Source of the DNA: Streptomyces sp. NBC_01353
GTDB lineage: Bacteria; Actinomycetota; Actinomycetes; Streptomycetales; Streptomycetaceae
NCBI RefSeq assembly: GCF_036237275.1
Contig: NZ_CP108352.1
Coordinates: forward strand, 3,100,001 to 3,164,000
DNA length: 64,000 nt
Reading direction: 5' to 3'
A program made the translations under genes and the position numbers. The notes under the pieces are model-generated. The model did no database searches, was not told the DNA's origin, and worked only from the letters and a program-made list of their open reading frames with translations. This document shows, piece after piece, positions 42,324-54,826 of this stretch (positions are counted from its first letter, which is position 1; every line of letters starts with the position of its first letter).

Positions 42324-43502
42324 CTAGTAGACCGGCTTCTCGGGCTCGATCTGGTGCACCCAGCCGATGACGCCGCCACCGACGTGCACCGCGTCCGCGA
42401 AGCCCGCGGACTTGAGCACGGCGAGGACTTCCGCACTGCGGACACCCGTCTTGCAGTGCAGGACGATCCGCTTGTCCTGCGGGAGGTCCTGGAGGGCGCT
42501 GCCCATCAGGAACTCGTTCTTCGGGATCAGCCGCGCGCCGGGGATCGAGACGATCTCGTACTCGTTGATCTCCCGGACATCGATGATGTCGATGTTCTCG
42601 CCCTCGTCGATCCACTCCTTGAGCTGCTTGGGAGTGATCGTCGAACCGAGCGCCGCCTCCTGGGCCTCCTCGGACACGACGCCGCAGAAGGCCTCGTAGT
42701 CGATGAGCTCGGTGACGGTCGGGTTCTCGCCGCAGACCGCGCAGTTCGGGTCCTTGCGGACCTTGACCTGGCGGTACTGCATCTCCAGGGCGTCGTAGAT
42801 CATCAGCCGGCCGACCAGCGGGTCGCCCACGCCGGCCAGGACCTTGATCGCCTCGGTGACCTGGATGGAGCCGATGGACGCGCAGAGCACGCCCAGGACG
42901 CCGCCCTCGGCGCAGGACGGGACCATGCCCGGCGGCGGGGGCTCCGGGTAGAGGCAGCGGTAGCAGGGGCCGTACTCGGACCAGAAGACGGAGGCCTGGC
43001 CGTCGAAGCGGTAGATCGAGCCCCAGACGTACGGCTTGTTCAGCAGCACGCACGCGTCGTTGACGAGGTAACGCGTGGCGAAGTTGTCCGTGCCGTCGAC
43101 GATCAGGTCGTACTGGCTGAAGATGTCCATCACGTTCTCGGCCTCGAGCCGCTCTTCGTGGAGGATCACGTTCACGTACGGGTTGATGCCGAGGACCGAG
43201 TCCTTGGCGGACTCCGCCTTGGAACGGCCGATGTCCGCCTGGCTGTGGATGATCTGGCGCTGCAGGTTCGACTCGTCGACCTCGTCGAACTCCACGATGC
43301 CGAGCGTGCCCACACCGGCCGCGGCCAGGTACATCAGGGCCGGCGAACCGAGGCCACCGGCGCCCACACAGAGCACCTTGGCGTTCTTCAGCCGCTTCTG
43401 CCCGTCCATCCCGACATCCGGGATGATCAGGTGGCGGGAGTACCTGCGGACCTCGTCTACGGTGAGCTCGGCAGCCGGCTCGACCAGGGGTGGCAGCGAC
43501 AC
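42324..43502 (-). CDS. moeZ: MoeZ: adenylyltransferase/sulfurtransferase (MoeB-rhodanese fusion)
   Basis: A 392-residue E1-like enzyme fused to a rhodanese. Residues 1-270 are the MoeB/ThiF domain (VLCVGAGGLGSPAL near 44-57, DNFATRYLVND, zinc cysteines in CYRCLYPE and CAVCGENP). Residues about 290-392 are a rhodanese with the persulfide cysteine in HCKTGVRS. MoeZ adenylates and sulfurates the C-terminus of small sulfur carriers (MoaD, CysO and related proteins) in actinobacteria, feeding molybdopterin, cysteine and thio-metabolite synthesis. GTG 43502 has GGAG six nt upstream. In M. tuberculosis the neighbour is the DUF3152 gene; here an 11.7-kb block separates them. Confidence 0.95.
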   Translation of the reverse strand: MSLPPLVEPAAELTVDEVRRYSRHLIIPDVGMDGQKRLKNAKVLCVGAGGLGSPALMYLAAAGVGTLGIVEFDEVDESNLQRQIIHSQADIGRSKAESAKDSVLGINPYVNVILHEERLEAENVMDIFSQYDLIVDGTDNFATRYLVNDACVLLNKPYVWGSIYRFDGQASVFWSEYGPCYRCLYPEPPPPGMVPSCAEGGVLGVLCASIGSIQVTEAIKVLAGVGDPLVGRLMIYDALEMQYRQVKVRKDPNCAVCGENPTVTELIDYEAFCGVVSEEAQEAALGSTITPKQLKEWIDEGENIDIIDVREINEYEIVSIPGARLIPKNEFLMGSALQDLPQDKRIVLHCKTGVRSAEVLAVLKSAGFADAVHVGGGVIGWVHQIEPEKPVY

Positions 43503-43565: not shown

Positions 43566-44315
43566 TCATTCCGAGACACCCGGTCCAATGCGCGAGACGA
43601 TTTCGTCCCAGTAGCCGGGCAGAGTTTGGAATGGATCGGTTTGTCCCGAGTGGTCCGCGTGGTCCGTGAAGAAGATCGTCCCCGCTCCCTGCCAGCGGGC
43701 GATCCGCATCGCTTCGTCGAGGTGACTGCGCGGCACCCCGTGGACGAGATGGACGAACTTCTCCGGCGGATACTCGGCGGTCCACTCGGCCACCTGCGAC
43801 CAGCGGTAGTCCGTCCACGGCCCGGAGAAGGTGACCAGCTGGTCGGCCGTCTCGGCGTAGCCCGGGTACGGATGGGTGCCATGGCCGAGAACGAGGTGAG
43901 CCTCGCCGTCGAGGACCGCCTCCAGGGTGGCCGTGACGCGCCTCACCTCGGGCAGGTCGACCCGGTCGGTGGGGCACCGGTCCAGGTAGAAGCCGTCGAC
44001 CTTGTACCAGTCGAGGAAGCGGTGGGCGTCCGAGACGATCTCGCCGAACTCGCGCGAGCCGTGGCAGAGGTCCAGATGCCCGAGGACCCTGATCCCCGCG
44101 TTCCGCAGCCGGCCGGACGCCTCCAGGCAGTGCGGGTCGGGCCGGTCGCCCGGCCCTTCGGCGACGTTGAGCACGGCCCAGTGCAGGGGGGTGCCGGGGC
44201 GGGTCAGTTCGGCCCATTCGACGGGGGCGATCAGCGGGTGGGCGTAGCCGGGGACCCCGAAGCCCAACTCCGCCATCTGTACGGCCCCGGTCGTGCTCGC
44301 GGTCAGATGCGACAT
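43566..44315 (-). CDS. Spherulin-4-like / GH135-family glycoside hydrolase
   Basis: A 249-residue protein with the Spherulin4 layout: FGVPGYAHPLIAPVEW at the start, WAVLNVAEGPGDRPD, RVLGHLDLCHGSREF, WYKVDGFYLDRCP and FFTDHADHSG along a TIM-barrel pattern. Fungal Sph3 of this family (GH135) cleaves galactosaminogalactan, and the hydrolase domain of PelA is analogous. No signal peptide is visible, so the activity may be cytoplasmic or export non-classical. Its ATG (44315) lies 13 bp inside the epimerase gene end, so it is co-translated with it. Last gene of the four-gene cluster. Confidence 0.8.
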   Translation of the reverse strand: MSHLTASTTGAVQMAELGFGVPGYAHPLIAPVEWAELTRPGTPLHWAVLNVAEGPGDRPDPHCLEASGRLRNAGIRVLGHLDLCHGSREFGEIVSDAHRFLDWYKVDGFYLDRCPTDRVDLPEVRRVTATLEAVLDGEAHLVLGHGTHPYPGYAETADQLVTFSGPWTDYRWSQVAEWTAEYPPEKFVHLVHGVPRSHLDEAMRIARWQGAGTIFFTDHADHSGQTDPFQTLPGYWDEIVSRIGPGVSE

Positions 44316-45289
44316 GCCGCCTCCATCCAGATGTCGGCGAGCGACTCCTCCAGGTTGATCCTGGGGCGCCAGCCGAGCCGGTCGCGTGCGGTGCGGACGT
44401 CGGCCTGCTGCCAGCTGCCGCAGCCGTCGGGGTACGGGTAGGGCGCGGCGGCCAGCTGTTCGGCGATGGTCTCGGTGCGGGGGGCGCCGATGACGGGTCG
44501 CTGGTGCGGGCCGTGCGGGCCGTGCGGGCCGTGCGGGCCGTCGAGTTCGTGCAGGGTCCCGGCGTATCCGGCGACGCGGGCCAGCACGGCGGCGGCGTCG
44601 CGCAGCCTGACCGCGCGGCCGGTGCCGATGTTGACGACACCCTGGGCGGCGGAGAGCGAGGCCGCGTGGACGGCGCGGGCCACGTCCCGTACGTCGACGA
44701 AGTCGCGCTGCACGCCGAGGCCGCTGAGCTTGAGCTCGCCGTCGCCTGCCTGCATGGCGCGGCGCATGGCCTCGGCGAGGCGGCCGAGCGGGGAGCCGGC
44801 GGGGGTGCCGGGGCCCACGGGCGAGAACACCCGAAGCACCACGGCGTCGAGGCCCGACCCCAGGACGAGTTCGGTCGCCGCCAGCTTCGAGACCCCGTAG
44901 GGGCCGCCGGGGCGGGGCACGGCGTCCTCGGCGGTGGAGGAGCCGGGCTGACTGGGCCCGTACTCCGAGGCGCAGCCGACCTGGACGAGCCGGGCGCCGC
45001 AGCCGCTGCGGCGCAAGGCCTCGCAGACGGTGGCGACGGCGACGGTGTTGTGCCGGGTCAGTTCGCGGGCGCCGCCGCGGGTGGCGCCCGCGCAGTTGAC
45101 GACGACTCCGGGGTGGACGGCGTCCAGGAACCGGGTCAGGGCGCCGGGGCTGCCGCCGGCGAGGTCGAACCGTACGTCGGCGTCGTCGCCCCGCCCGAGG
45201 GCGGTGAGGTGCACGGCCGGGTCGGCGAGCAGCCGGTCGGCGACGAAGCGGCCGAGGAATCCATTGGCTCCGAGCAGCAGCACCCTCAT
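44303..45289 (-). CDS. NAD-dependent sugar-nucleotide epimerase/dehydratase
   Basis: A 328-residue extended SDR. MRVLLLGANGFLGRFVADRL gives the GxxGxxG nucleotide site; VVNCAGATR, VQVGCASEYGPSQ, PYGVSKLAA (catalytic YxxxK), LRVFSPVGPG, QRDFVDVRDVARAV and a GIGTGR-like VNIGTGRAVRLRD follow. The pattern is that of UDP-sugar 4-epimerases or dehydratases. Four GPH tripeptides (GPHGPHGPHGPH, DNA 44508-44540) form a coding microsatellite. It overlaps the spherulin-like gene. In the cluster it would supply an epimerised UDP-hexosamine or hexose; the substrate is inferred. Confidence 0.87.
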   Translation of the reverse strand: MRVLLLGANGFLGRFVADRLLADPAVHLTALGRGDDADVRFDLAGGSPGALTRFLDAVHPGVVVNCAGATRGGARELTRHNTVAVATVCEALRRSGCGARLVQVGCASEYGPSQPGSSTAEDAVPRPGGPYGVSKLAATELVLGSGLDAVVLRVFSPVGPGTPAGSPLGRLAEAMRRAMQAGDGELKLSGLGVQRDFVDVRDVARAVHAASLSAAQGVVNIGTGRAVRLRDAAAVLARVAGYAGTLHELDGPHGPHGPHGPHQRPVIGAPRTETIAEQLAAAPYPYPDGCGSWQQADVRTARDRLGWRPRINLEESLADIWMEAACRI

Positions 45290-45416
45290 CGTGCGGCCCC
45301 TTCGTGCCGACCGGCCGTGGCTGGGGGTTGGGAGGTCATGTCTCTTTCGTCTCCTTGGGATGGGGTCCTGCGGGGTGGGTGCGCCCGCGGCGTCGGCTCC
45401 GCGGATGCGCCGGGGT

Positions 45417-47621
45417 TCAGGTGCCGGTGGCGGCGTGGGCCGAGGCCCGGGAGAGGGCGGCGGTGGCGTGGGCCAGCAGGCCGAGCGCCGCGGCGCCGCA
45501 GACGAGGGTGGGTACGGCGCCGGGGCCCCAGGTGTCGACGAGGGCGCGGACCGGGACGGCGAGGAGGTCACAGCCGGGCACGCGGCCCGCCAGGACGCTC
45601 GCGAGGGCGAGCGCCTCGGCGGCGCAGGCGGCGGCGAGGCCGCTCGCGGCGGTCTCGGGGAACTCATGGACGGTGAGGAGCCGGGCGAGGAGGAGGAGCG
45701 CGCCGAGGGCGAGGGCGCCGGGCGCGAAGCCTGTCAGGGCCAACAGGCCCGCGAGGGCGGCCAGATGGAGGGCCACGGTGGCCAGGAGCAGGGGACGGGT
45801 GCCGGCGGCGAAGTCCTCCAGGCCTCGGCTGACGGTGAGCCTGCGGCGGGCCCTTGCGGCGAAGAGCCGGGCGCACCAGGCGGCGGGGGCGACGGCGAGG
45901 GCGAGGCCCAGGAGGGGCTGGGGCGTGATGTCCCAGGCGCCGTCGGGTCCGCCGGCGAGCACCTGCTGGAGAAGACCGTCCCCGCCGACCGCGTACGCGA
46001 GGAGCCAGAGGGTCCAGACGCGGGCGGCGGGGACGGTGCGGCCGGCGGCGCGCAGGGGGCCGCGCCGGACGGCGACGGCGAGTGCGGCGGCCAGGCAGAG
46101 GACCCCGGCCGCGCCGACGGCGAGGCGCACGGGCCCTTCGGTGAGCGCGAGTCCGGTGACGGTGAGGGCGGCGACGGCCCCGGGCGCGAGGGCGGCCACG
46201 GTCCACCCGGCCCACCCGGAGCGCGTGCCGTCCTCGGTCGCGGGACGCGGGGGCGCCCCGTTCTGCCGGGGCACGCGCGCGTACAGCTCCTCGGCGAGCG
46301 AGAACACGTCCCGATGCCGAAACCGCGCCGCGGTCCGGTCGGTGACCCCGTGGGCCTCGAGCCCGGCGGCGATCTCCAACGGATCGACGGCCCGCTCACA
46401 CAGCTCCCGGTGCCGATGCATGAGCGCCTTGACGGGATCGGCGGAACCTCGCCGATTGGGCTTGGCGACGGCCTCGGGCGCCGGTGCCGGTCCGACGGCC
46501 TCGGGCGCCGGTGCCGGTCCGACGGCCTCGAGCGCCGGTGCCGGTCCGACGGCCTCGGGCGCCGGTGCCGGTCCGACGGCCTCGGCGCCGGGGACGGCGC
46601 GCGGGTGCGGGGCGGCCTGCGGCTGCGGGGCGATGCCGGAGCGGGAAGGGTTCTGCCGATGCGGGGCGGCGTGCGGGTCCGGCGCGAAGTCGGCGCCGGA
46701 CGGGGCCTGCCGATGCGGGGCGGCGTGCGGGTCCGGCGCGAAGTCGGCGCCGGACGGGGCCTGCCGGTGCGGGGCGCCGCCGTCGCCGGACGGGGCCTGC
46801 CGGTGCGGGGCGCCGCCGTCGCCGGACGGGGCCTCCCGGTCCGGCGCGCCGCCGTCGCCGGACGGGGCCTGCGCGGCCTCAGCCCTGGGCGGGGTCTGAC
46901 GGTGCGAGGTGTCACTGGCGCCGGACGAGGCCTTCTGGTGTGGGGTGCCGCCGGCCACGGGCGGACCGGGCGCGTCCCCCACGCCGGACGCGGCATGACG
47001 GTACTGCGCACCTCCGGCCACGGGCGGGCCGGGCGCGTCCCCCGCGCCGGACGCGGCATGACGGTACTGCGCACCTCCGGCAACGGGCTGGCCGGGCACG
47101 TCCCCCGCGCCGAGCCGGACCTGCGGGTGTGGCCTGTCCCCGGCCTGCCGGGCCGGCACGGCTTCGGCCTGCTGGGCCGGCACGGCCCCGGCCCCGGGCC
47201 GCGTGTGCGAGGCGTCGCTCGCCTCCCGGCTGCCGGGCAGGGCCGGCGCGTCCCACGCGCCAGGCGCGGCCCGCAGGTGCGAGCCCTCCGGTGCCCCGGG
47301 CGCGGGCATCGTCGCCGCTCCCGCCCACGCGCGGGAACGCGGTGCTTCGTCCGCGTCACGTGGCGCGAGCCGCGCCCGGGGGCCGGCCGATCGGTCCGCG
47401 TCCGGGCCGCCCATCGACCGCAGGTCGAGGTCCGCGCCGCCCCGCGGGTCCCCGGACTCCGCCGTGGCGGGCACCGGGTCGCCCGTTCCCCGGCGACCCC
47501 ACCCCGGGGTCACCGCCGGCGGCTGCCCGTCGGTCTTCACGGAGACCGTCACGGCAACGGTCAGCGCCGTCGTCTCGAGGAGCGCCTCGGCGTGGGAGTC
47601 CGGGGCGGCGGGGCCGCGCAT
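45417..47621 (-). CDS. Large repeat-rich N-terminal region fused to a polytopic membrane domain
   Basis: A 734-residue protein. Residues about 30-420 are low-complexity Ala/Pro/Gly with tandem repeats: GPAPAPEAV (four), SGDGGAPHRQAP (about four), a 15-18-residue unit with GADFAPDPHAAPHRQ (two), and a roughly 20-residue unit with GDAPGPPVAGG (three). A conserved block follows (HRELCERAVDPLEIAAGLE, then RFRHRDVFSLAEELYARV), then about eight hydrophobic segments. It sits between the glycosyltransferase and epimerase genes and may be the membrane component of the same polysaccharide system; I do not recognise the family. ATG 47621 is preferred because GGAGG lies eight nt upstream; ATG 47642 overlaps the glycosyltransferase end. 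Confidence 0.75.
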   Translation of the reverse strand: MRGPAAPDSHAEALLETTALTVAVTVSVKTDGQPPAVTPGWGRRGTGDPVPATAESGDPRGGADLDLRSMGGPDADRSAGPRARLAPRDADEAPRSRAWAGAATMPAPGAPEGSHLRAAPGAWDAPALPGSREASDASHTRPGAGAVPAQQAEAVPARQAGDRPHPQVRLGAGDVPGQPVAGGAQYRHAASGAGDAPGPPVAGGAQYRHAASGVGDAPGPPVAGGTPHQKASSGASDTSHRQTPPRAEAAQAPSGDGGAPDREAPSGDGGAPHRQAPSGDGGAPHRQAPSGADFAPDPHAAPHRQAPSGADFAPDPHAAPHRQNPSRSGIAPQPQAAPHPRAVPGAEAVGPAPAPEAVGPAPALEAVGPAPAPEAVGPAPAPEAVAKPNRRGSADPVKALMHRHRELCERAVDPLEIAAGLEAHGVTDRTAARFRHRDVFSLAEELYARVPRQNGAPPRPATEDGTRSGWAGWTVAALAPGAVAALTVTGLALTEGPVRLAVGAAGVLCLAAALAVAVRRGPLRAAGRTVPAARVWTLWLLAYAVGGDGLLQQVLAGGPDGAWDITPQPLLGLALAVAPAAWCARLFAARARRRLTVSRGLEDFAAGTRPLLLATVALHLAALAGLLALTGFAPGALALGALLLLARLLTVHEFPETAASGLAAACAAEALALASVLAGRVPGCDLLAVPVRALVDTWGPGAVPTLVCGAAALGLLAHATAALSRASAHAATGT
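46469..47100. repeat. Tandem coding repeats in the polytopic membrane protein gene
   Basis: Four copies of a 27-bp unit (46469-46582), two of a 54-bp unit (about 46660-46770), about three and a half of a 36-bp unit (about 46751-46870), and three of a roughly 60-bp unit (about 46930-47100). All unit lengths are multiples of three or nearly so, keeping the frame open. Such arrays can change length by slippage or recombination. Confidence 0.8.
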
Positions 47622-47634
47622 GGGGGTGCCTCCT

Positions 47635-49254
47635 TCAGGCATCGGGGTCTCCCGCGACGGCGGCGCTCACGGGCTGGTCCGCCCAGGTGCCGGGGACGTA
47701 CGCCTCCGCCGGGTGGGCGAAGGGGACGCCCTCGGCGGCATGGCGGCGCACGGGTGCGTGGGAGAGGAGTTCCAGGTAGATGCCGCGAAATGCCGCGAGG
47801 TTCTGCTCGACGGTGAAGAGTTCGAGCGCGCGGGCGCGGGCCGCGGCGCCCAGGCGGTAGCGGCGCTCGGGGTCGCGCAGGAGCGCAAGGCACGCGTCCG
47901 CGAGCGCCCGCGGATTGCGCGGGGGCACGACGAGTCCGGTGCCGCCGATGACCTCGACGACCGCGCCCACGTCCGTGGAGACCGTCGCCCGCGCGCAGAA
48001 CATGGCCTCGACCAGGCTGATCGGGAAGCCCTCGACGACGCTGGAGAGGACCACGACCGCGCCCGCCGCGTACGCCTCGGCGAGCGTCGGCGCCTCCGGT
48101 CCGCCGATCTCCTCGAAGGTGACCGGGTTCTCGCCGACGTCGTGCGCCCCGGCGGCCTCGTCGGGGAAGAGCTGCGCCGCGAGCGCCCGACAGTGCGCGA
48201 GGTACGCCTCGGCGCCGGACTCGCGCACCGGGGCCGCGATGATCCGCAGCCGGACGTCGGGCTGGGCCTTGCGCACCTCGGCGAAGGCGTGCAGCAGGGC
48301 GATCAGGTCCTTGGCGGGTTCGACGCGGCCGACCCAGACGAGGGTGGCCGGGTCGCCGCTCTCCTCGTCCTCGCCGACCTCGGTGAACCGCTCGGACTCC
48401 ATGCCCGGGTAGACCGTGCGCAGTTTGGCCCGGTCGGCCCCGCACTTCTCCTGCCAGCGGCGGGCGTGCGTGTTGCCGGGGGTGAGGAGCGCGGCCTGCC
48501 GGTAGACCTCGGCGGCGAGCCGGCCGTGGAAGGCGGCGAGCAGGGCGCGCACGGGCGCGGAGAGCGGTGCGTCGGTGGCGGCGAGGTAGTGCGCGCGCAG
48601 CTGGACGCCGTACTCGGTGACCAGCAGCGGAGTCCCGAAGAAGCGTTTGGCCAACAGGCCGGGAAGCGCCGCCGATCCGCCGGACGCGGCGTGGCAGAGG
48701 TCGACCGCGCCGAGGCCGTCCTCGCCGTACCAGTCGAGCGACATTGGGCGCAGGGCGCGCTCCAGCTGGTCGACGAAAGCGAGGTAGTCGGGCACGGTGG
48801 CGTCCGCCACACCCCGGCGTGCGCCGGGGGCGCGGCAGGCGGACTCCAGAGTGCGGACCGCGAGTTCGGAGCGGAGGGCCGCATAGAGACCGCCGCGCTC
48901 GCGGGCGAGCCCGGCCAGTCCGTAGAGCCCGTCGGCGAAGGCGCGCACGGCCACCGCGTCGTCCTCGGCGCAGACGCCGGTCGCGAGCGCTCCGAAGTGG
49001 CCGGCGAAGAAGCGCCGTTCGCGCCGGCCGTATGTGTGTCCGTCGTCCTCGGGCGCCCAGAGCGGGGCCGTGCGGACGCGCCGGACCTGCGGGGGCAGGT
49101 CGACCCAGCCGGCCTCCTCCTGCCGGGCGCTGCGGCTGAGGGCGTACAGGTCGAAGTCGTGCGGCGCGAGCCCGCGCACGAGCCGGTCGCACCAGAGCCT
49201 GGACTCACCCGTGGCGTACGGGTAGCCACCCTCCGTCAGCAGTCCGATCCGCAT
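47635..49254 (-). CDS. PelF-like GT4 glycosyltransferase (DUF3492 + glycosyl transferase 1)
   Basis: A 539-residue glycosyltransferase. The N-terminus RIGLLTEGGYPYATGESRLW and the following DUF3492 region, with VTEYGVQLRAHYL in the middle, match PelF-type enzymes. The C-terminal GT4 half has WVGRVEPAKDLIALLHAF and EGFPISLVEAMFCARA (the E-x7-E motif). PelF uses UDP-GalNAc/GlcNAc to build the Pel exopolysaccharide. ATG 49254 (GGGGG about seven nt upstream) or GTG 49260 starts it. First gene of a four-gene run on the minus strand. A strong hairpin upstream (49332-49369) isolates it from the ABC transporter operon. Confidence 0.85.
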   Translation of the reverse strand: MRIGLLTEGGYPYATGESRLWCDRLVRGLAPHDFDLYALSRSARQEEAGWVDLPPQVRRVRTAPLWAPEDDGHTYGRRERRFFAGHFGALATGVCAEDDAVAVRAFADGLYGLAGLARERGGLYAALRSELAVRTLESACRAPGARRGVADATVPDYLAFVDQLERALRPMSLDWYGEDGLGAVDLCHAASGGSAALPGLLAKRFFGTPLLVTEYGVQLRAHYLAATDAPLSAPVRALLAAFHGRLAAEVYRQAALLTPGNTHARRWQEKCGADRAKLRTVYPGMESERFTEVGEDEESGDPATLVWVGRVEPAKDLIALLHAFAEVRKAQPDVRLRIIAAPVRESGAEAYLAHCRALAAQLFPDEAAGAHDVGENPVTFEEIGGPEAPTLAEAYAAGAVVVLSSVVEGFPISLVEAMFCARATVSTDVGAVVEVIGGTGLVVPPRNPRALADACLALLRDPERRYRLGAAARARALELFTVEQNLAAFRGIYLELLSHAPVRRHAAEGVPFAHPAEAYVPGTWADQPVSAAVAGDPDA

Positions 49255-49443: not shown

Positions 49444-51043
49444 TCAGGCTGCGGCCAGTTCCTGGCGCCGTTCGCGGCGCGCGGTCGCGAGGACGGGATC
49501 GAGGGACGGGACGGCGGCGAGCAGCTGCCGCGTGTACGGATCCTGGGGGGAGCCGTACACCTCCTCGACCGTGCCCTGCTCGACGATCCGGCCCCGACGC
49601 ATGACCGCGACCCGGTCGCTGACCTGCCGTACCACGGCCAGGTCGTGCGCGATGAAGACCAGGGCGAGCCCGAGTTCGCGCTGGAGCTCCGCGAGGAGCG
49701 CGGTGACCTGTGCCTGGGTGGTCACGTCGAGAGCGGAGACGGGTTCGTCGCAGACGATCACCTTCGGTTCGGCGGCGAGCGCGCGGGCGATGCCGACGCG
49801 CTGGCGCTGCCCGCCGCTGAACTCGTGCGGATAGGCGTCGTAGCGGTCGGGATCGAGCCCGACCCGGTCGAGCAACTCCCGCACCCGGGTCCGGATCCGG
49901 GTGTCGTCGCGGCCGCCCACCGCACGCAGGGGGTCCGCGATCGACTCGCCGATCGACCTGCGCGGGTTGAGCGAGGAGACGGGGTCCTGGAACACCATCT
50001 GCAGTTCGCGCGAGAGGCCCCCGAGCTCCGCACCCCCGTACCGGAGCCGGCCGCCGGTCGGATCGAGCAGCCGCACCAGCATCCGCCCGAGCGTCGTCTT
50101 GCCGCTGCCGGACTCGCCCACGATCCCCAGGGTCTCCCCCGCCCGCACGGTGAGCGACACACCGTCGACGGCGGTGACGCGCGCCTTCCCGCGCCCGAAC
50201 TCCCGCCGCAGGTCCACCGCTTCGAGCAGCGGCTCGCCCACCGCCGGGGGCCGCTCGCGCAGGGGCCCGTCGAGGCGTGGCACCGCGGTGAGCAGGGTCC
50301 GGGTGTACGGCTCCGAGGGCGCGGCGAGGACCTCCCGTACCGGGCCGCGTTCGACCTCCCGGCCCGCCCGCATGACAAGCACCTCGTCCACGCTCTCCGC
50401 CGCCACGCCCACGTCGTGGGTGACCAGCAGCAGACCCATGCCTGTCTCGCGCCGCAGTTCGTGCAGCAGGTCGAGGATCTGGGCCTGGACGGTGACGTCG
50501 AGTGCGGTGGTCGGTTCGTCGGCGATCAGGAGCTGCGGCTCGCAGGCGAGCGCCATCGCGATGAGCGCCCGCTGGCGCATACCGCCGCTGAACTCGTGCG
50601 GGCGTGCGCGGGAGCGGCGCGCGGCGTCGGGGATGCCGACGCGGTCCAGGACCTCGACCGCGCGGGCACGGGCGGCCCGCCTGGATCCCGGGCGGTGGAT
50701 CCGGTACACCTCGGCGATCTGCTCGCCGACCGGGAAGTACGGATCGAGGGACGACAGAGGGTCCTGGAAGACCATCGCCGCCACCCCGCCCCGCAGCGCG
50801 CGCAGTTCGGCGGCGGAGGCACGGCCGACGTCGATCCCGCCGACCTCGACCGTCCCCGCCACCCGTGCGCCCGTCCCCCGGTGCAGCCCGAGGAGCGCGC
50901 CGGCCACCGTCGACTTGCCGCTGCCGGACTCGCCGACCAGGGCCAGCGCCCGTCCGGCGTCCAGCGTGAACGACAGGCCGTCCACGGCCCGTCGCCCCGT
51001 CGAACTCCACCGTGAGGCCGTCGACCTCCACCAGCGCGCTCAT
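49444..51043 (-). pseudogene. Dual-ATPase oligopeptide ABC transporter subunit, apparent frameshift near its 5' end
   Basis: Two ABC ATPase cassettes in one chain (GsiA/DppDF-like). Cassette 1 has [27 protein letters not shown] and VTHDVG; cassette 2 has [27 protein letters not shown] and IAHDLA. The ATG at 51043 overlaps the permease stop in ATGA and encodes [19 protein letters not shown], the expected first beta-strand, but the rest (from [15 protein letters not shown]) is in another frame from 50985. The 51043 frame stays open without meaning to about 49418. If GTG 50985 starts translation (weak GGGG upstream), the product is a 513-residue protein missing the first strand. A lost 5-bp GGGCC repeat would restore one frame (reading DGATGRAVDGL). 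Confidence 0.75.
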
Positions 51044-52029
51044 GTCAGAACCACCCTTCGGTCGGCGGCGGCGTACAGCAGGTCGGCGATCACGTTCGCC
51101 AGGACCACGGCCGTGCCGATCACCATCACCACACCCACCACCACCGGCAGGTCGATCTCCCGCACCCCGTCGATGAGAGTCTTGCCGAGCCCGGGGATGC
51201 CGAAGAGGGACTCGGTGAGCACCGCGCCGCCGAACATCGAGCCGAGGTCGACCGCGCTGAGCGCGATCACCGGCGGCACGGCGCCGCGCAGCGCGTGCCG
51301 CCCGACGACCGCCCGCTCGCCCACGCCGTACGCCCGGAAGGTGCGGATGTGGTCTTCGGCGAGCGTCTCCAGCGTGGAACTCCGGGTCAGCCGCGCGTAC
51401 TTGGCCGATTCGAAGAAGCCGAGGGTGATCCAGGGCAGGAGCATGTTCCACGCCCACTGCTCGGGGTCCTCGCCGAGCGGCACGTACGTGGGGAACGGCA
51501 GCCATTGCAGGTACGCGCAGACGGCCATCAGCAGGAGCAGTCCGAGGATGAAGACGGGCGTGCCGGTTCCGGCGAGGGTCAGCACGGTCAGCGTCCGCTC
51601 GGTGAGGCCGCCGCGGCGCAGCGCGGAGAGCAGCCCGGTGCCGACGCCGACGACGAGCCAGATGACCATCGCGCCCAGGGCGAGCGAGGCGGTGGCGGGC
51701 AGCCGCTCCAGGACGAGCTGGGTGACCTGCTGGTCTGTCTGGTACGACAGGCCGAGGCAGGGCGCGTCGCAGTGGAGCACGGAGGTGCCGGTGCTGTAGT
51801 CGCGGCCGACGAGGACGCCCTGGAGGAACTGTCCGTACTGCGCGAAGACGCTCTGGTTCAGGCCGAGTTGCTCGCGCACCTGGGCCACCTGCTGCGGGCT
51901 GCAGCGTTCGCCGCAGGCGAGCCGGGCGGGGTCGCCGGGCGCGAGGTAGAAGAGCGCGTAGACGAGGACGGACAGCGCGAGAAGGACGAGCACGGCCCCC
52001 GCGAGCCGCTTGAGGACGAAGCGCGTCAT
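51040..52029 (-). CDS. Oligopeptide/nickel-type ABC permease, DppB-like
   Basis: A 329-residue membrane protein of the DppB family. The N-terminal helix [30 protein letters not shown] carries the family PGDPA motif; about six spans follow. The cytoplasmic coupling loop includes [24 protein letters not shown] (EAA-like). ATG 52029 overlaps the upstream permease stop in ATGA, and its own stop overlaps the ATPase start in ATGA, so translation is coupled on both sides. Substrate not determinable. Confidence 0.9.
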
Positions 52030-53099
52030 GAGGACGCCTCCTTGCGGGGTCCCGTACGCGAGTCCCCGCGCGTGGCTGTACGTGGATGCTTGCCCGAACG
52101 TGTCGGCGCGTCCTCGCGCGGTCCCCTGCGCGCGTCCTTGCGGGTGCCGACGCCGAGCCGGCTCGCCTCGCGCGGGTCGAGGGCCGCGCGCACCGCGTCC
52201 CCGAGCACCGTGAAGGCGAGCACGGTCACGAAGAGCATTCCGGCGGGCAGCAGCACGTACGTCGGATCGGCACGGAACCAGGTCTGCGCGGTCGACAGCA
52301 TCTGCCCCCACGACGGCGTCGGCGGCTTCACCCCCACACCGAGGAAGGAGAGCGAGGCCTCGACGACCATGTTCACGGGCACGAGGATCGCCGCGTACGT
52401 GATGACGGGCGCCGCGAGCGAGGGGACGAGCTCGCGCCGGGCCACCCGCCACCGGCCGGAGCCCGCGAGCCGCGCCGCGGCCACGAAGTCCAGGCTCTTG
52501 AGGGTGAGGGTCTGCGCCCGCACGATCTTGGACGTACCGCCCCAGCCGAGGACGCCGATCACGAGGATCAGCAGCAGCGGGCGCGGGAAGTCCGGGGGGA
52601 CGACGGCGGTCAGGGCGATGGCGAGCACGAGCATCGGCAGCGCGACCAGGACATCGGTCAGACGGCCGAGGACGGCGTCGACGACACGGTTGCCGAGTCC
52701 GGCGGCCAGGCCGATCACGAGCCCGATGAGCACCTGGACGGCCGTCGCGCCGATGGCGACGAGGAGGGAGATCCGGGCGCCGTGGAGCAGCCGTACGAAC
52801 AGGTCGCGGCCCGTGCCCGGTTCGACGCCGAGCCAGTGGTCGGCGCTGATCCCGCCGAAGGAGCCGAGCGGGACCCCGCCACGCGCCGAGTCGACGAGGT
52901 CGTCGTGGTACGTGGTGGCGTCCTGACCGGCCAGCGCGGCGAGGAGCGGCGCGGCGGCCGCGAGGAGGACGAGCAGGGCGAGGACTCCGGCGGCGACGAG
53001 CGCCGAGGGGCGGGTGCGCAGGCGCCGCCATACCTGCCGGGCGGCGCCCGTGGCGGGGATCTCCGCCACGGGCACCGTCGCTTCGGTCAGCGCGGTCAC
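52026..53099 (-). CDS. Oligopeptide/nickel-type ABC permease, DppC-like, with a basic C-terminal tail
   Basis: A 357-residue DppC-family permease. An N-terminal cytoplasmic stretch precedes LVAAGVLALLVLLAAAAPLLAALA. The family blocks HWLGVEPGTGRDLFVRLLHG and SLDFVAAARLAGSGRWRVARRELV (coupling helix) are present, with about six spans. After the expected end (ALDPRE) there are about 45 extra Arg/Lys/Thr-rich residues, unusual for the family, possibly a disordered extension. GTG 53099 overlaps the substrate-binding-protein stop in GTGA. Confidence 0.88.
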   Translation of the reverse strand: MTALTEATVPVAEIPATGAARQVWRRLRTRPSALVAAGVLALLVLLAAAAPLLAALAGQDATTYHDDLVDSARGGVPLGSFGGISADHWLGVEPGTGRDLFVRLLHGARISLLVAIGATAVQVLIGLVIGLAAGLGNRVVDAVLGRLTDVLVALPMLVLAIALTAVVPPDFPRPLLLILVIGVLGWGGTSKIVRAQTLTLKSLDFVAAARLAGSGRWRVARRELVPSLAAPVITYAAILVPVNMVVEASLSFLGVGVKPPTPSWGQMLSTAQTWFRADPTYVLLPAGMLFVTVLAFTVLGDAVRAALDPREASRLGVGTRKDARRGPREDAPTRSGKHPRTATRGDSRTGPRKEASS

Positions 53100-54826
53100 T
53101 TGACCGCGACCTGCGAGATGTCGAGGACGCCGGTCCAGTCGCTGATGACGACGTTCTTGACGTCCTTGCCGACGAGCTGCTTGTAGACGGGGTGGAAGAG
53201 CGGCACGTCGAGCGCCTGCTCGCCGATCTTCTTGTCGAGCGCGCCCCAGCGGGCGGCGGCGTCCTTGAGGTCGGCCAGCTTGTTGATCTCGTCGATCTCC
53301 TTGTTGACCGCCGGGTCGTTCAGCTGCGCGTGGTTGTAGTTGGAGCCGTTGGTGACGATCTGGCGGCCGTCGAAGATCGGCGCGAGGAACGGGCCGCCGG
53401 CGGGCCAGTCGGCGCCCCAGCGGGAGAGGAAGAAGCCGGGCGCGTCCTTGACGCTCCACCTCTTCTCGTTGAAGGAGTTGGGCTCCTGGCCGTCCAGCTT
53501 CACCGTGATGCCGGCCTTGCCGAGCGCCTCCTGGACGGCGGTGGCGATCTCGGGGCTGGTGGTGCGGTTCTGCGCGGTGGAGTGCAGCAGCGTGACGGTG
53601 AGGCCGTTCGGGTGGCCGGCCTCCTTCAGGAGCTCCTTGGCCTTGGCCGGGTCACCGGTCTCGCCTGCCGGGAAGTGGTCGTAGGGCGTGAAGCCGAAGG
53701 CCTTCTGCTCGGGCAGGAAGGTCGTGGCGGGCTCGGCGAGCGCGGAGCCGCCGGCCGCGTTGACGACGCTGGTGCGGTTGATCGCGTACGAGATCGCCTG
53801 GCGCACCTTGATGTTGTCGAAGGGCTTCACCTTCGGGTTGAAGGCGATGTAGTTGGTGAAGCCGAAGTGGCCGGTGCCGACGCGGGCGGCGAGCTCCTTG
53901 TCGGAGCCGATCTGGGCGAGCTCGGCCGGGCCGAGGTTGGTGTCGGTGGTGAGGGCGGCGGCGTCGGCGCCCGAGGATGTGGACAGGCGCTGGTTGATGA
54001 CGGCCTCGTCCAGACCCGACCTGACGTCGATCGTGTCGGGGTATGCCTTGCGCTCCTCGTCGGTCTTGGGGTCCCAGTGCTCGTTGCGCTCGAGGACGAG
54101 GTGCTCGCCGTCGTTCTTGTTCGTGACGACCTTGTACGGGCCGGAGGAGACCGGGTGCTCCTCGTACTTCGCGCCGGTGTCCTTGGCCTTGGGGACCGGG
54201 GCGAACTGGGTCTGGGTGGCGAGGAACGGGAACTCGCCCTCGGGCTTCTTCAGCTTGAAGACGATCGTCTTCGCGTCGGGCGTGATGATCGAGGCGAGGC
54301 CCTTCTTGTCCTTGTACGGACCCTGGTAGGTGTCGCCGCCGACCAGCCAGTCACGCAAGTACGGTGCGCCGCCGGAGAGTTCGGCCGCGAAGGAACGCTG
54401 GATGCCGTACTTGACGTCGGCGCTGGTGATCGGCGTGCCGTCCTCGAACTTCAGGCCGTCCTTCAGCGTGTACGTCCACTCGGTGGCGTCCTTGTTGGGG
54501 CGGCCGGTGTCGGTGGCGAGGTCGGGGACGACCTGGGTGCCGGCGGCGCCCGCCTCGCGGTTGCGGGTGGTGAGCGTACGGAAGACGAGGGAGGGAACGT
54601 TGCCGCCGCCGGAGGTGTAGAGGCGGGCGGGGTCGAAGTCGGACTGCGCCTCGGCGTTGAGGACGGTCAGGGTGCCGCCCTTGCGCGGCGCGCCCTCGCT
54701 CGTACCACCGGCGGTCCTGTCGCCCGCTCCGTCCTGGGGGCCGGCGCAGGCGACGGCGCCCGAGGCCAGGACGAGACCGATGGCGGCCGCTGCCAGGCGG
54801 CGCGATATGACGGACGGTTGGCGCAT
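53096..54826 (-). CDS. Family 5 extracellular solute-binding lipoprotein (oligopeptide/nickel ABC transporter)
   Basis: A 576-residue lipoprotein. The signal peptide ends in the lipobox AVAC (Cys 27). The SBP_bac_5 body has KGGTLTVLNAEAQSDFDPA, WTYTLKDGLKFEDGTPITSA, HPVSSGPYKV and VRQAISYAINRTSVV. These proteins capture peptides or similar ligands and deliver them to the DppB/DppC permeases encoded just downstream. ATG 54826 follows GAGAGG. It heads the operon after a leader region (54827-55128) containing a short ORF and a strong promoter. Confidence 0.92.
   Translation of the reverse strand: MRQPSVISRRLAAAAIGLVLASGAVACAGPQDGAGDRTAGGTSEGAPRKGGTLTVLNAEAQSDFDPARLYTSGGGNVPSLVFRTLTTRNREAGAAGTQVVPDLATDTGRPNKDATEWTYTLKDGLKFEDGTPITSADVKYGIQRSFAAELSGGAPYLRDWLVGGDTYQGPYKDKKGLASIITPDAKTIVFKLKKPEGEFPFLATQTQFAPVPKAKDTGAKYEEHPVSSGPYKVVTNKNDGEHLVLERNEHWDPKTDEERKAYPDTIDVRSGLDEAVINQRLSTSSGADAAALTTDTNLGPAELAQIGSDKELAARVGTGHFGFTNYIAFNPKVKPFDNIKVRQAISYAINRTSVVNAAGGSALAEPATTFLPEQKAFGFTPYDHFPAGETGDPAKAKELLKEAGHPNGLTVTLLHSTAQNRTTSPEIATAVQEALGKAGITVKLDGQEPNSFNEKRWSVKDAPGFFLSRWGADWPAGGPFLAPIFDGRQIVTNGSNYNHAQLNDPAVNKEIDEINKLADLKDAAARWGALDKKIGEQALDVPLFHPVYKQLVGKDVKNVVISDWTGVLDISQVAVK

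Follow-up and report, generated by a model that had tools for sequence, protein, structure and literature searches.

The window analyzed in this study is a stretch of 64,000 nucleotides from Streptomyces sp. NBC_01353, and its minus strand carries, between positions 43566 and 49254, four genes that we refer to as GT, MEM, EPI and SPH; they lie in this order and are followed by moeZ. The coordinates were confirmed, and so was the assignment made in the first-pass annotation, which had recognized a PelF/DUF3492 glycosyltransferase, a membrane protein, an epimerase-family SDR and a Spherulin4/GH135-like protein on one strand. Pfam supports this assignment for GT, EPI and SPH, and predicted helices support it for MEM. 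The features are as follows.

47635..49254 (alternative start 49260), minus strand: GT, a DUF3492/PelF-type GT4 glycosyltransferase of 539 amino acids (open reading frame, Pfam, NCBIfam)
45417..47621, minus strand: MEM, a membrane protein of 734 amino acids, or of 741 amino acids from 47642 (open reading frame, predicted helices)
45286..45339, minus strand: a 17-codon leader mini-ORF that has a Shine-Dalgarno-like site; its stop overlaps the EPI start (ATGA)
44303..45289, minus strand: EPI, an extended SDR of 328 amino acids (Pfam Epimerase)
43566..44315, minus strand: SPH, a Spherulin4/GH135-like protein of 249 amino acids (Pfam Spherulin4)
42324..43502, minus strand: moeZ (ThiF and rhodanese), a conserved neighbor 63 bp downstream

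Loci of the window type are called type B. For the counts, the best 80 of 352 relatives were retained, and these 80 loci, together with eight that come from further genera in the family, form the type B set (n = 88). Among the best 80 of 352, EPI, SPH and moeZ occur in every locus, MEM in 77 and GT in 72, the misses being loci cut by a contig end. All five genes are visible in 79 of the 88 type B loci and are collinear on one strand in 79/79; the co-occurrence of the four families elsewhere, on which the first-pass annotation had staked its proposal, thus held. The GT-MEM-EPI-SPH-moeZ arrangement is not a product of chance, and the cluster occurs in most Streptomyces genomes examined. The leader mini-ORF is present in 72 of the 79 sequences showing the EPI start, with a Shine-Dalgarno-like motif in 71 of these 72. 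moeZ is probably not part of the function of the cluster. The oligopeptide ABC genes upstream were rejected as part of the system because the upstream neighbors vary among the 88 type B loci (OppDF alone in 34, DUF3152 alone in 41, both in three and neither in ten, nine of which end early).

Pieces of the cluster are absent in some lineages. Three Streptomyces genomes have kept GT-MEM-EPI and lost SPH, and at locus L116 EPI and SPH remain beside moeZ, GT and MEM being absent and no DUF3492 having been found in that genome (93% complete). Such absences could suggest a functionless relic that hitch-hikes beside the housekeeping gene moeZ. However, dN/dS in five pairs was 0.14-0.25 for SPH, 0.04-0.11 for EPI and 0.19-0.33 for GT, values that indicate constraint and not decay. 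The selection data, as estimated from these sequence pairs, disfavor a relic, as does the unbroken collinearity, and we regard this explanation as very improbable. Conservation is strongest in EPI, with a median of 89.8%.

SPH matches Pfam Spherulin4 (PF12138) with 75.8 bits (cut-off 30.2). The window sequence alone gave no match against the PDB; the SPH profile A2 matches the GH135 hydrolase Sph3 (PDB 5c5g) with an E-value of 2.3e-9 over profile positions 23-242. In the alignment to Sph3, D112 stands at the nucleophile position and S164 at the position of Glu222, the acid/base residue of Sph3 (PMC12054363). The Glu occurs in none of 81 SPH sequences (the window and 80 close relatives), whereas the nucleophile Asp is kept in the window copy and in 80 of the 81, and E177 is invariant (81/81). 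SPH is thus a member of GH135 by Spherulin4 homology but not by the catalytic pair of Asp and Glu. The first-pass annotation had named a lack of the acidic GH135 residues as evidence against itself, and this was largely what we found: the Glu is gone and the Asp stays. A hydrolase that trims a GalNAc polymer is therefore not supported, and the earlier remark on the lack of a visible signal peptide agrees with a Kyte-Doolittle scan of SPH, in which no hydrophobic segment appeared.

In a tree of 64 SPH rows, the Glu was lost once, and ten changes at the nucleophile Asp came later; of the 41 rows without the Glu, 11 carry a changed Asp, as against none of the 23 rows that have it. The tree excluded eight duplicates and two G056 rows, the start of L084 was set by hand, both catalytic columns were kept in the alignment, and many rows come from short loci with unchecked gene order; L048 was left out of A3. 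An AlphaFold2 model of SPH built from 20 close sequences (pLDDT 44.6) was set aside as unusable, so a substitute acid elsewhere in the protein, such as E177, may exist.

GT matches Pfam DUF3492 (PF11997) with 100 bits (cut-off 23.3) and also glycosyltransferase group 1. Against the PelF equivalog NF038011 it scores 96, just below the cut-off of 100; its paralogue at L084, a second cluster of the same genome, scores 164.8. The kinship with unrelated GT4 enzymes that would have undermined the original proposal did not emerge. Among rows with a match covering >85% of the query (74 type B rows including the window), EX7E (E408/E416), R310 and K315 are invariant in 74/74, which points to a live transferase. 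The 'GGVS' loop is not kept and reads G-E-S-R in the window. Position 17, the second Gly of this loop, to which we presume a functional role in the family, is Glu in 47 rows, Asp in 23, Gln in one and a gap in three (Glu or Asp in 70 of 71 ungapped rows), versus Gly in 10/10 compared rows.

EPI scores 124.7 bits against Pfam Epimerase, and no NCBIfam model matched it above cut-off. GxxGxxG and YxxxK are kept in EPI. Among rows selected by the same >85% coverage (89 type B rows including the window), Cys106 occupies the catalytic Ser position in 89/89. That position is Ser in L116, in L117 and in the six other CE18-cluster rows; moreover, the RxxN motif of CE18-type relatives has its Asn where EPI has Ser156. 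We take the Ser/Thr-Tyr-Lys triad to be that of SDR 4-epimerases, and the Ser position to be catalytic in EPI as in the family; Cys is sometimes able to replace Ser. EPI keeps the Tyr and the Lys of the triad and has Cys in place of the Ser. Among solved structures, 4-keto-6-deoxysugar reductases are the best-matching relatives and 4-epimerases rank lower, and the relative in the CE18-type cluster L127 has galE as its best NCBIfam match, far below threshold. In CE18-type clusters the EPI relative adjoins a LegB-type 4,6-dehydratase and a nucleotidyltransferase. Given this company, the reductase-like structures and Cys106, the 'UDP-hexosamine 4-epimerase' of the first-pass annotation is not established; the last two points and the sub-threshold galE match also led us to drop a UDP-GlcNAc 4-epimerase as the main reading.

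GxxGxxG, YxxxK and EX7E are kept while other active-site positions are changed in all three proteins, a pattern consistent with a complex of pseudoenzymes. In such a complex GT, EPI and SPH would no longer catalyze but would act as binders of a sugar nucleotide, NAD(P) and a glycan, and jointly with MEM they would monitor or control the synthesis of envelope glycans. The strong conservation, that of EPI foremost, would suit such a complex, and so would the persistence of EPI and SPH at L116. However, the invariant EX7E, R310 and K315 of GT suggest catalysis, and Pfam found no signalling domain; we consider this explanation unlikely.

MEM has no Pfam family at E 0.1. Its conserved part consists of a domain of ~60 residues and 8-9 predicted membrane helices, and its N-terminal domain is common to CE18-type clusters; the model (pLDDT 67.3) was used for the helix count only. 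The earlier description as a repeat-rich membrane protein holds for the membrane protein, and the repeats are confined to the low-complexity, variable N-terminal part, which is much shorter in L006. An apparent absence of MEM from L006 was an effect of the BLAST filter, the frame being present, and matches in L116 and L177 (28% identity, low-complexity) were disregarded. PelG was rejected as an identity for MEM: a search of the same genome for PF16933 gave no match, in agreement with the annotated lack of a recognizable PelG. A Pfam search of this genome for Spherulin4 listed the paralogue only and missed the window SPH, which hmmscan and a protein search recover; for this reason a gene that such family or profile searches fail to show in a genome is weakly supported as absent, and in two of the genome profile searches scoring was limited to the top 6-7 candidates of each genome.

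In eight related clusters (L117, L125-L128 and L132-L134) the families of the window cluster are joined by genes for an Agd3-like (CE18-like) deacetylase, for a LegB-like dehydratase and for a nucleotidyltransferase; these three occur in 0/88 type B loci. The deacetylase count used the L084 protein as query, and the visible stretch upstream of GT, where the gene would be expected, varies in length (median 4.7 kb, minimum 46 bases in the 80 loci showing GT). GH114 occurs in 6 of 13 other loci and in 0/88 type B loci. The L117 cluster adjoins moeZ and keeps the CE18-type residues. In the trees of SPH, GT and EPI it branches beside type B; those of GT and EPI were built with 19 hand-chosen type B rows and rooted on CE18-type rows. 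The CE18-like protein of L084 matches Agd3_CE with 22.5 bits, under the cut-off of 27.6.

Bacterial exopolysaccharide operons with Agd3 (CE18) contain a cytoplasmic glycosyltransferase and a multi-spanning membrane protein, commonly GH114 and, in some Actinobacteria, a Spherulin-4 gene (PMC7229062). The eight clusters and L084 resemble these operons as there described; type B differs in a locus without deacetylase or GH114, an SPH without the catalytic Glu, and altered positions in EPI and GT. The fungal galactosaminogalactan (GAG) cluster comprises an epimerase, a synthase, a deacetylase, Sph3/GH135 and GH114 (PMC11356417, PMC7229062). It likewise groups an epimerase-like SDR, a glycosyltransferase and the Spherulin4 family, but its Sph3 is catalytic and has a transmembrane segment near the N-terminus, whereas SPH has neither a hydrophobic segment nor the acid/base Glu, and the type B locus has neither deacetylase nor GH114. 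The Gram-positive Pel operon, pelDEADAFG, shares a PelF-family glycosyltransferase with nearby epimerase and hydrolase accessory genes (PMC7112168); our genome differs in having no PelG match, the locus in having no deacetylase and MEM in having no Pfam match. Literature searches listed no paper on the window-type cluster; one by presumed locus numbers gave two papers with a single mention each.

The first-pass annotation had proposed a streamlined Pel/GAG-like system. In a working form of it, GT would polymerize GalNAc, EPI would supply UDP-GalNAc, MEM would export the polymer, which would stay neutral for lack of a deacetylase, and SPH would trim it by means of a substitute acid. Such a system would accord with the intact EX7E of a PelF-type enzyme and with the GH135 kinship and retained Asp of SPH, the invariant E177 could serve as the acid, and the CE18-like protein of L084 might act in trans. 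However, no row of the window clade has the Glu, the Asp changed about ten times after its loss, the Ser of EPI is replaced throughout, the 'GGVS' loop is altered, three genomes do without SPH, and SPH carries no hydrophobic export signal. We consider a working system of this kind quite improbable; what survives of the proposed relationship is kinship by descent and the co-occurrence of the families, not a GalNAc-polymer pathway with a trimming hydrolase.

We believe, with a probability of roughly 0.58, that type B instead descends from an exopolysaccharide operon of the Agd3 type that was cut down and reshaped, and that its SPH is non-catalytic. This reading builds on the kinship, gene content, residue changes, conservation and purifying selection demonstrated by the comparisons of sequences above. 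Because SPH lacks the catalytic Glu and the sites of EPI and GT are altered, the cluster probably performs a different job from that of the GAG pathway. The ancestral operon, of which L117 beside moeZ gives the best picture, would have had a CE18-like deacetylase, PelF, a membrane protein, a LegB-like 4,6-dehydratase, a nucleotidyltransferase, an SDR and an intact Spherulin4 hydrolase, and probably also GH114. In the line leading to type B, the locus would have lost its genes for deacetylase, dehydratase, nucleotidyltransferase and GH114, while the glycosyltransferase, SDR and hydrolase would have changed at conserved positions of their active sites. GT may still bind a nucleotide-sugar donor, its EX7E, Arg and Lys being kept, and would work at the inner membrane face with a donor or an acceptor that differs from the original one. 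MEM may anchor the complex or move the product, SPH would be a cytoplasmic, non-catalytic glycan-binding partner, and the SDR may have an altered function or a structural one. What the cluster makes would be some glycan or glycoconjugate, but not a GalNAc polymer with partial deacetylation.

A bolder form of this descent appears possible, although we put it forward only tentatively: the whole exopolysaccharide operon would have been converted a single time, in a forerunner of Streptomyces and of related genera in its family. The outcome would be a conserved complex whose enzymes are changed or inactive (a GT-B with an acidic G-loop, an SDR with Ser changed to Cys and a GH135 protein without its acid/base), which would make or sense an undescribed glycan and would now be standard in Streptomyces.

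Family names taken as annotation would suggest that the cluster makes a polymer of the GAG/Pel kind and trims it with a hydrolase, but the active sites disagree. The cluster, widespread in Streptomyces, offers a clear case of an operon that shed partner genes as its enzymes changed at conserved catalytic positions; L117 is an intermediate in which the older gene set is still present.

Several observations point away from the descent that we prefer, namely the retained D112, the invariant E177, the EX7E of GT in 74/74 rows and galE as the best match of the L127 SDR. The missing sugar-nucleotide enzymes could also come from elsewhere, although the best homologues in the same genome are 35% and 36% identical.

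The first-pass annotation placed the four genes of the cluster on one strand, and we confirmed them on the minus strand at unchanged coordinates. They are listed here with a leader mini-ORF and the upstream neighbors.

49254-47635, minus: PelF/DUF3492 glycosyltransferase (GT)
47621-45417, or starting at 47642, minus: membrane protein (MEM)
45289-44303, minus: SDR "epimerase" (EPI)
44315-43566, minus: Spherulin4/GH135-like protein (SPH)
45286-45339, minus: leader mini-ORF of 17 codons, its stop overlapping the EPI start (ATGA)
49444-54826, minus: oligopeptide ABC transporter genes, upstream of GT

Downstream of SPH, moeZ follows after a gap of 63 bp. We refer to loci of this GT-MEM-EPI-SPH-moeZ form as type B, and our comparisons show, at the level of sequence, that the type B cluster descends from an Agd3-type operon, has lost genes at this locus, carries altered active sites and is under ongoing selection. 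A Pel/GAG-related exopolysaccharide operon is already known as a kind; its remodelled form was not found in the accessible parts of the literature searched, mostly without subscription papers.

According to PMC7229062, all operons of Agd3, a CE18 deacetylase, contain a cytoplasmic glycosyltransferase and a multi-spanning membrane protein, GH114 is common, and a Spherulin-4 gene is present in those of some Actinobacteria. The genome of the window holds a paralogous cluster that resembles these operons (L084, at about C1:6.242-6.248 Mb), which was considered together with an INTERMEDIATE.

L084 5947-11629: CE18-like protein, PelF, MEM relative and SPH with Glu; GAG-like

Its PelF scored 164.8 against NF038011, over the cut-off, and its CE18-like protein matched Agd3_CE at an E value of 6.6e-5, under the cut-off. 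This cluster gave no matches to EPI, LegB or the nucleotidyltransferase, and the best relatives of the latter two in the genome are 35% and 36% identical, respectively. PelG had no match in the same genome, and its one GH114 copy is distant from both clusters.

Among ten further paralogue-type regions (L125-L134), seven carry CE18-like, GT, MEM, EPI and SPH genes, L129 carries GT, MEM, SPH and GH114, and two yielded SPH alone with the queries used. Ten orthologue-type regions (L115-L124) comprise eight of type B, one with only EPI, SPH and moeZ (L116), and a full cluster beside moeZ (L117). The order in L117 is CE18-like (C-terminal part only, at the edge of the locus), GT, MEM, LegB, nucleotidyltransferase, EPI, SPH, GH114, a frame on the opposite strand that we read as BioB-like, and moeZ, with 3.6 kb between SPH and moeZ. 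Each of the eight full clusters (L117, L125-L128, L132-L134) has a LegB-like 4,6-dehydratase and a sugar nucleotidyltransferase. Both enzymes are absent from 88/88 type B loci, where three weak LegB matches (26%) coincide with EPI itself; the L127 dehydratase scored 448 bits against TIGR04180 (cut-off 475). Together with the SDR, these two enzymes suggest a 6-deoxy amino sugar (FucNAc or QuiNAc type) in the polymer of the CE18-type clusters. GH114, present in L117, L126, L128, L129, L132 and L133, was likewise found in 0 of the 88.

The active sites differ as well. Sph3, the GH135 hydrolase of the fungal galactosaminogalactan system, has an Asp/Glu pair, printed as Asp196/Glu222 in PMC12054363. 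When the SPH profile is aligned with Sph3 (PDB 5c5g), D112 and S164 of the window occupy the Asp and Glu positions, respectively, and the L084 paralogue retains the Glu. For the Asp, the spacing of 56 residues in this alignment fits Asp166. In the window and 80 relatives, position 164 is S in 62, A in 8, T in 7, C in 2, R in 2 and E in 0, and position 112 is D in 80 and G in 1. Parsimony on a 64-row tree gives a single loss of Glu; the Asp is also gone from 11 of the 41 Glu-less rows (10 changes), whereas it is gone from 0 of the 23 Glu-bearing rows. Below type B, L117 (Glu) and then L116 (Asp at the Glu position) follow as successive branches.

In EPI, 89/89 type B rows have Cys106 at a position that is Ser in L116, in L117 and in six other rows from CE18 clusters. 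None of the 89 has the RxxN Asn, and YxxxK is retained (L116 has Phe for the catalytic Tyr). In GT, 21 positions invariant across ten CE18-type rows are never so in type B, including His215, replaced by Tyr, and Gly17, replaced by Glu (47), Asp (23), Gln (1) or a gap (3). EX7E, R310 and K315 are invariant in 74/74 type B rows. We presume that the changed EPI positions are the SDR triad Ser and the substrate-binding Asn, and that Gly17 lies in the GT-B G-loop. In GT and EPI trees rooted on the CE18-type rows, L117 adjoins type B, as in the SPH tree, with a long branch to type B (0.79 for GT).

GT would transfer a sugar, with donor or acceptor changed, MEM might anchor the complex or move the product, the SDR would be altered, and SPH may bind a glycan without cutting it. 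Alternatively, the cluster may concern a neutral polymer, or it may serve as a sensor.

Conservation of the remodelled cluster was assessed in 80 loci, the best among 352 relatives, and in 8 added from other genera of the family. EPI, SPH and moeZ are present in 80/80, GT in 72/80 and MEM in 77/80; the remaining loci start too close to a contig end for GT or MEM to be visible. All five genes are visible in 79 of the 88 and collinear on one strand in 79/79. Median identity to the window is 96.0 for moeZ, 89.8 for EPI and 77.1 for SPH (80 loci), 71.6 for GT (72 loci) and 63.4 for MEM (75 loci). In five pairs, dN/dS was 0.04-0.11 for EPI, 0.14-0.25 for SPH, 0.19-0.33 for GT, 0.27-0.45 for MEM and 0.01-0.18 for moeZ. 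The EPI leader mini-ORF was found in 72/79 sequences (15 or 17 codons in 64), with an SD-like motif in 71 of the 72; the other frame not used by EPI was open in a similar way in 4/79. Upstream of GT, the context is variable, since the 88 loci have OppDF alone (34), a DUF3152 gene alone (41), both (3) or neither (10). The N-terminal part of MEM (window 46467-47621, minus) is of low complexity, rich in repeats and different among species, and it is far shorter in L006.

The nearest named relatives of the window, whose genome is 8.57 Mb, are Streptomyces. In the family draw, SPH matched in 121/150 genomes; among those listed, 36 of the same genus match, 35 with a window-type copy, and two do not, with nine more no-match genomes outside the listing. 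As few candidates per genome were scored, the wider counts are lower bounds: at least 14/396 genomes for the SPH profile in the phylum draw (11 of the 14 of the same genus, the window's own included) and at least 31/296 for the MEM profile in the class draw (28 of the 31 of the same genus, and three matching only in the N-terminal domain).

In three Streptomyces genomes, each about 6 Mb in size, GT-MEM-EPI-moeZ is retained and the window-type SPH is missing, with a 47-residue remnant in one and nothing in two. Genome G010 has the following next to moeZ:

L116 6278-8064: EPI and SPH, without GT or MEM

DUF3492 was not found in this genome (93% complete). From these genomes, SPH seems to be accessory to the cluster and not to belong to its core. 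A contig labelled Microtetraspora glauca (L057) carries a Streptomyces-type cluster with EPI 94.5% identical, and this strain is possibly mislabelled or misclassified.
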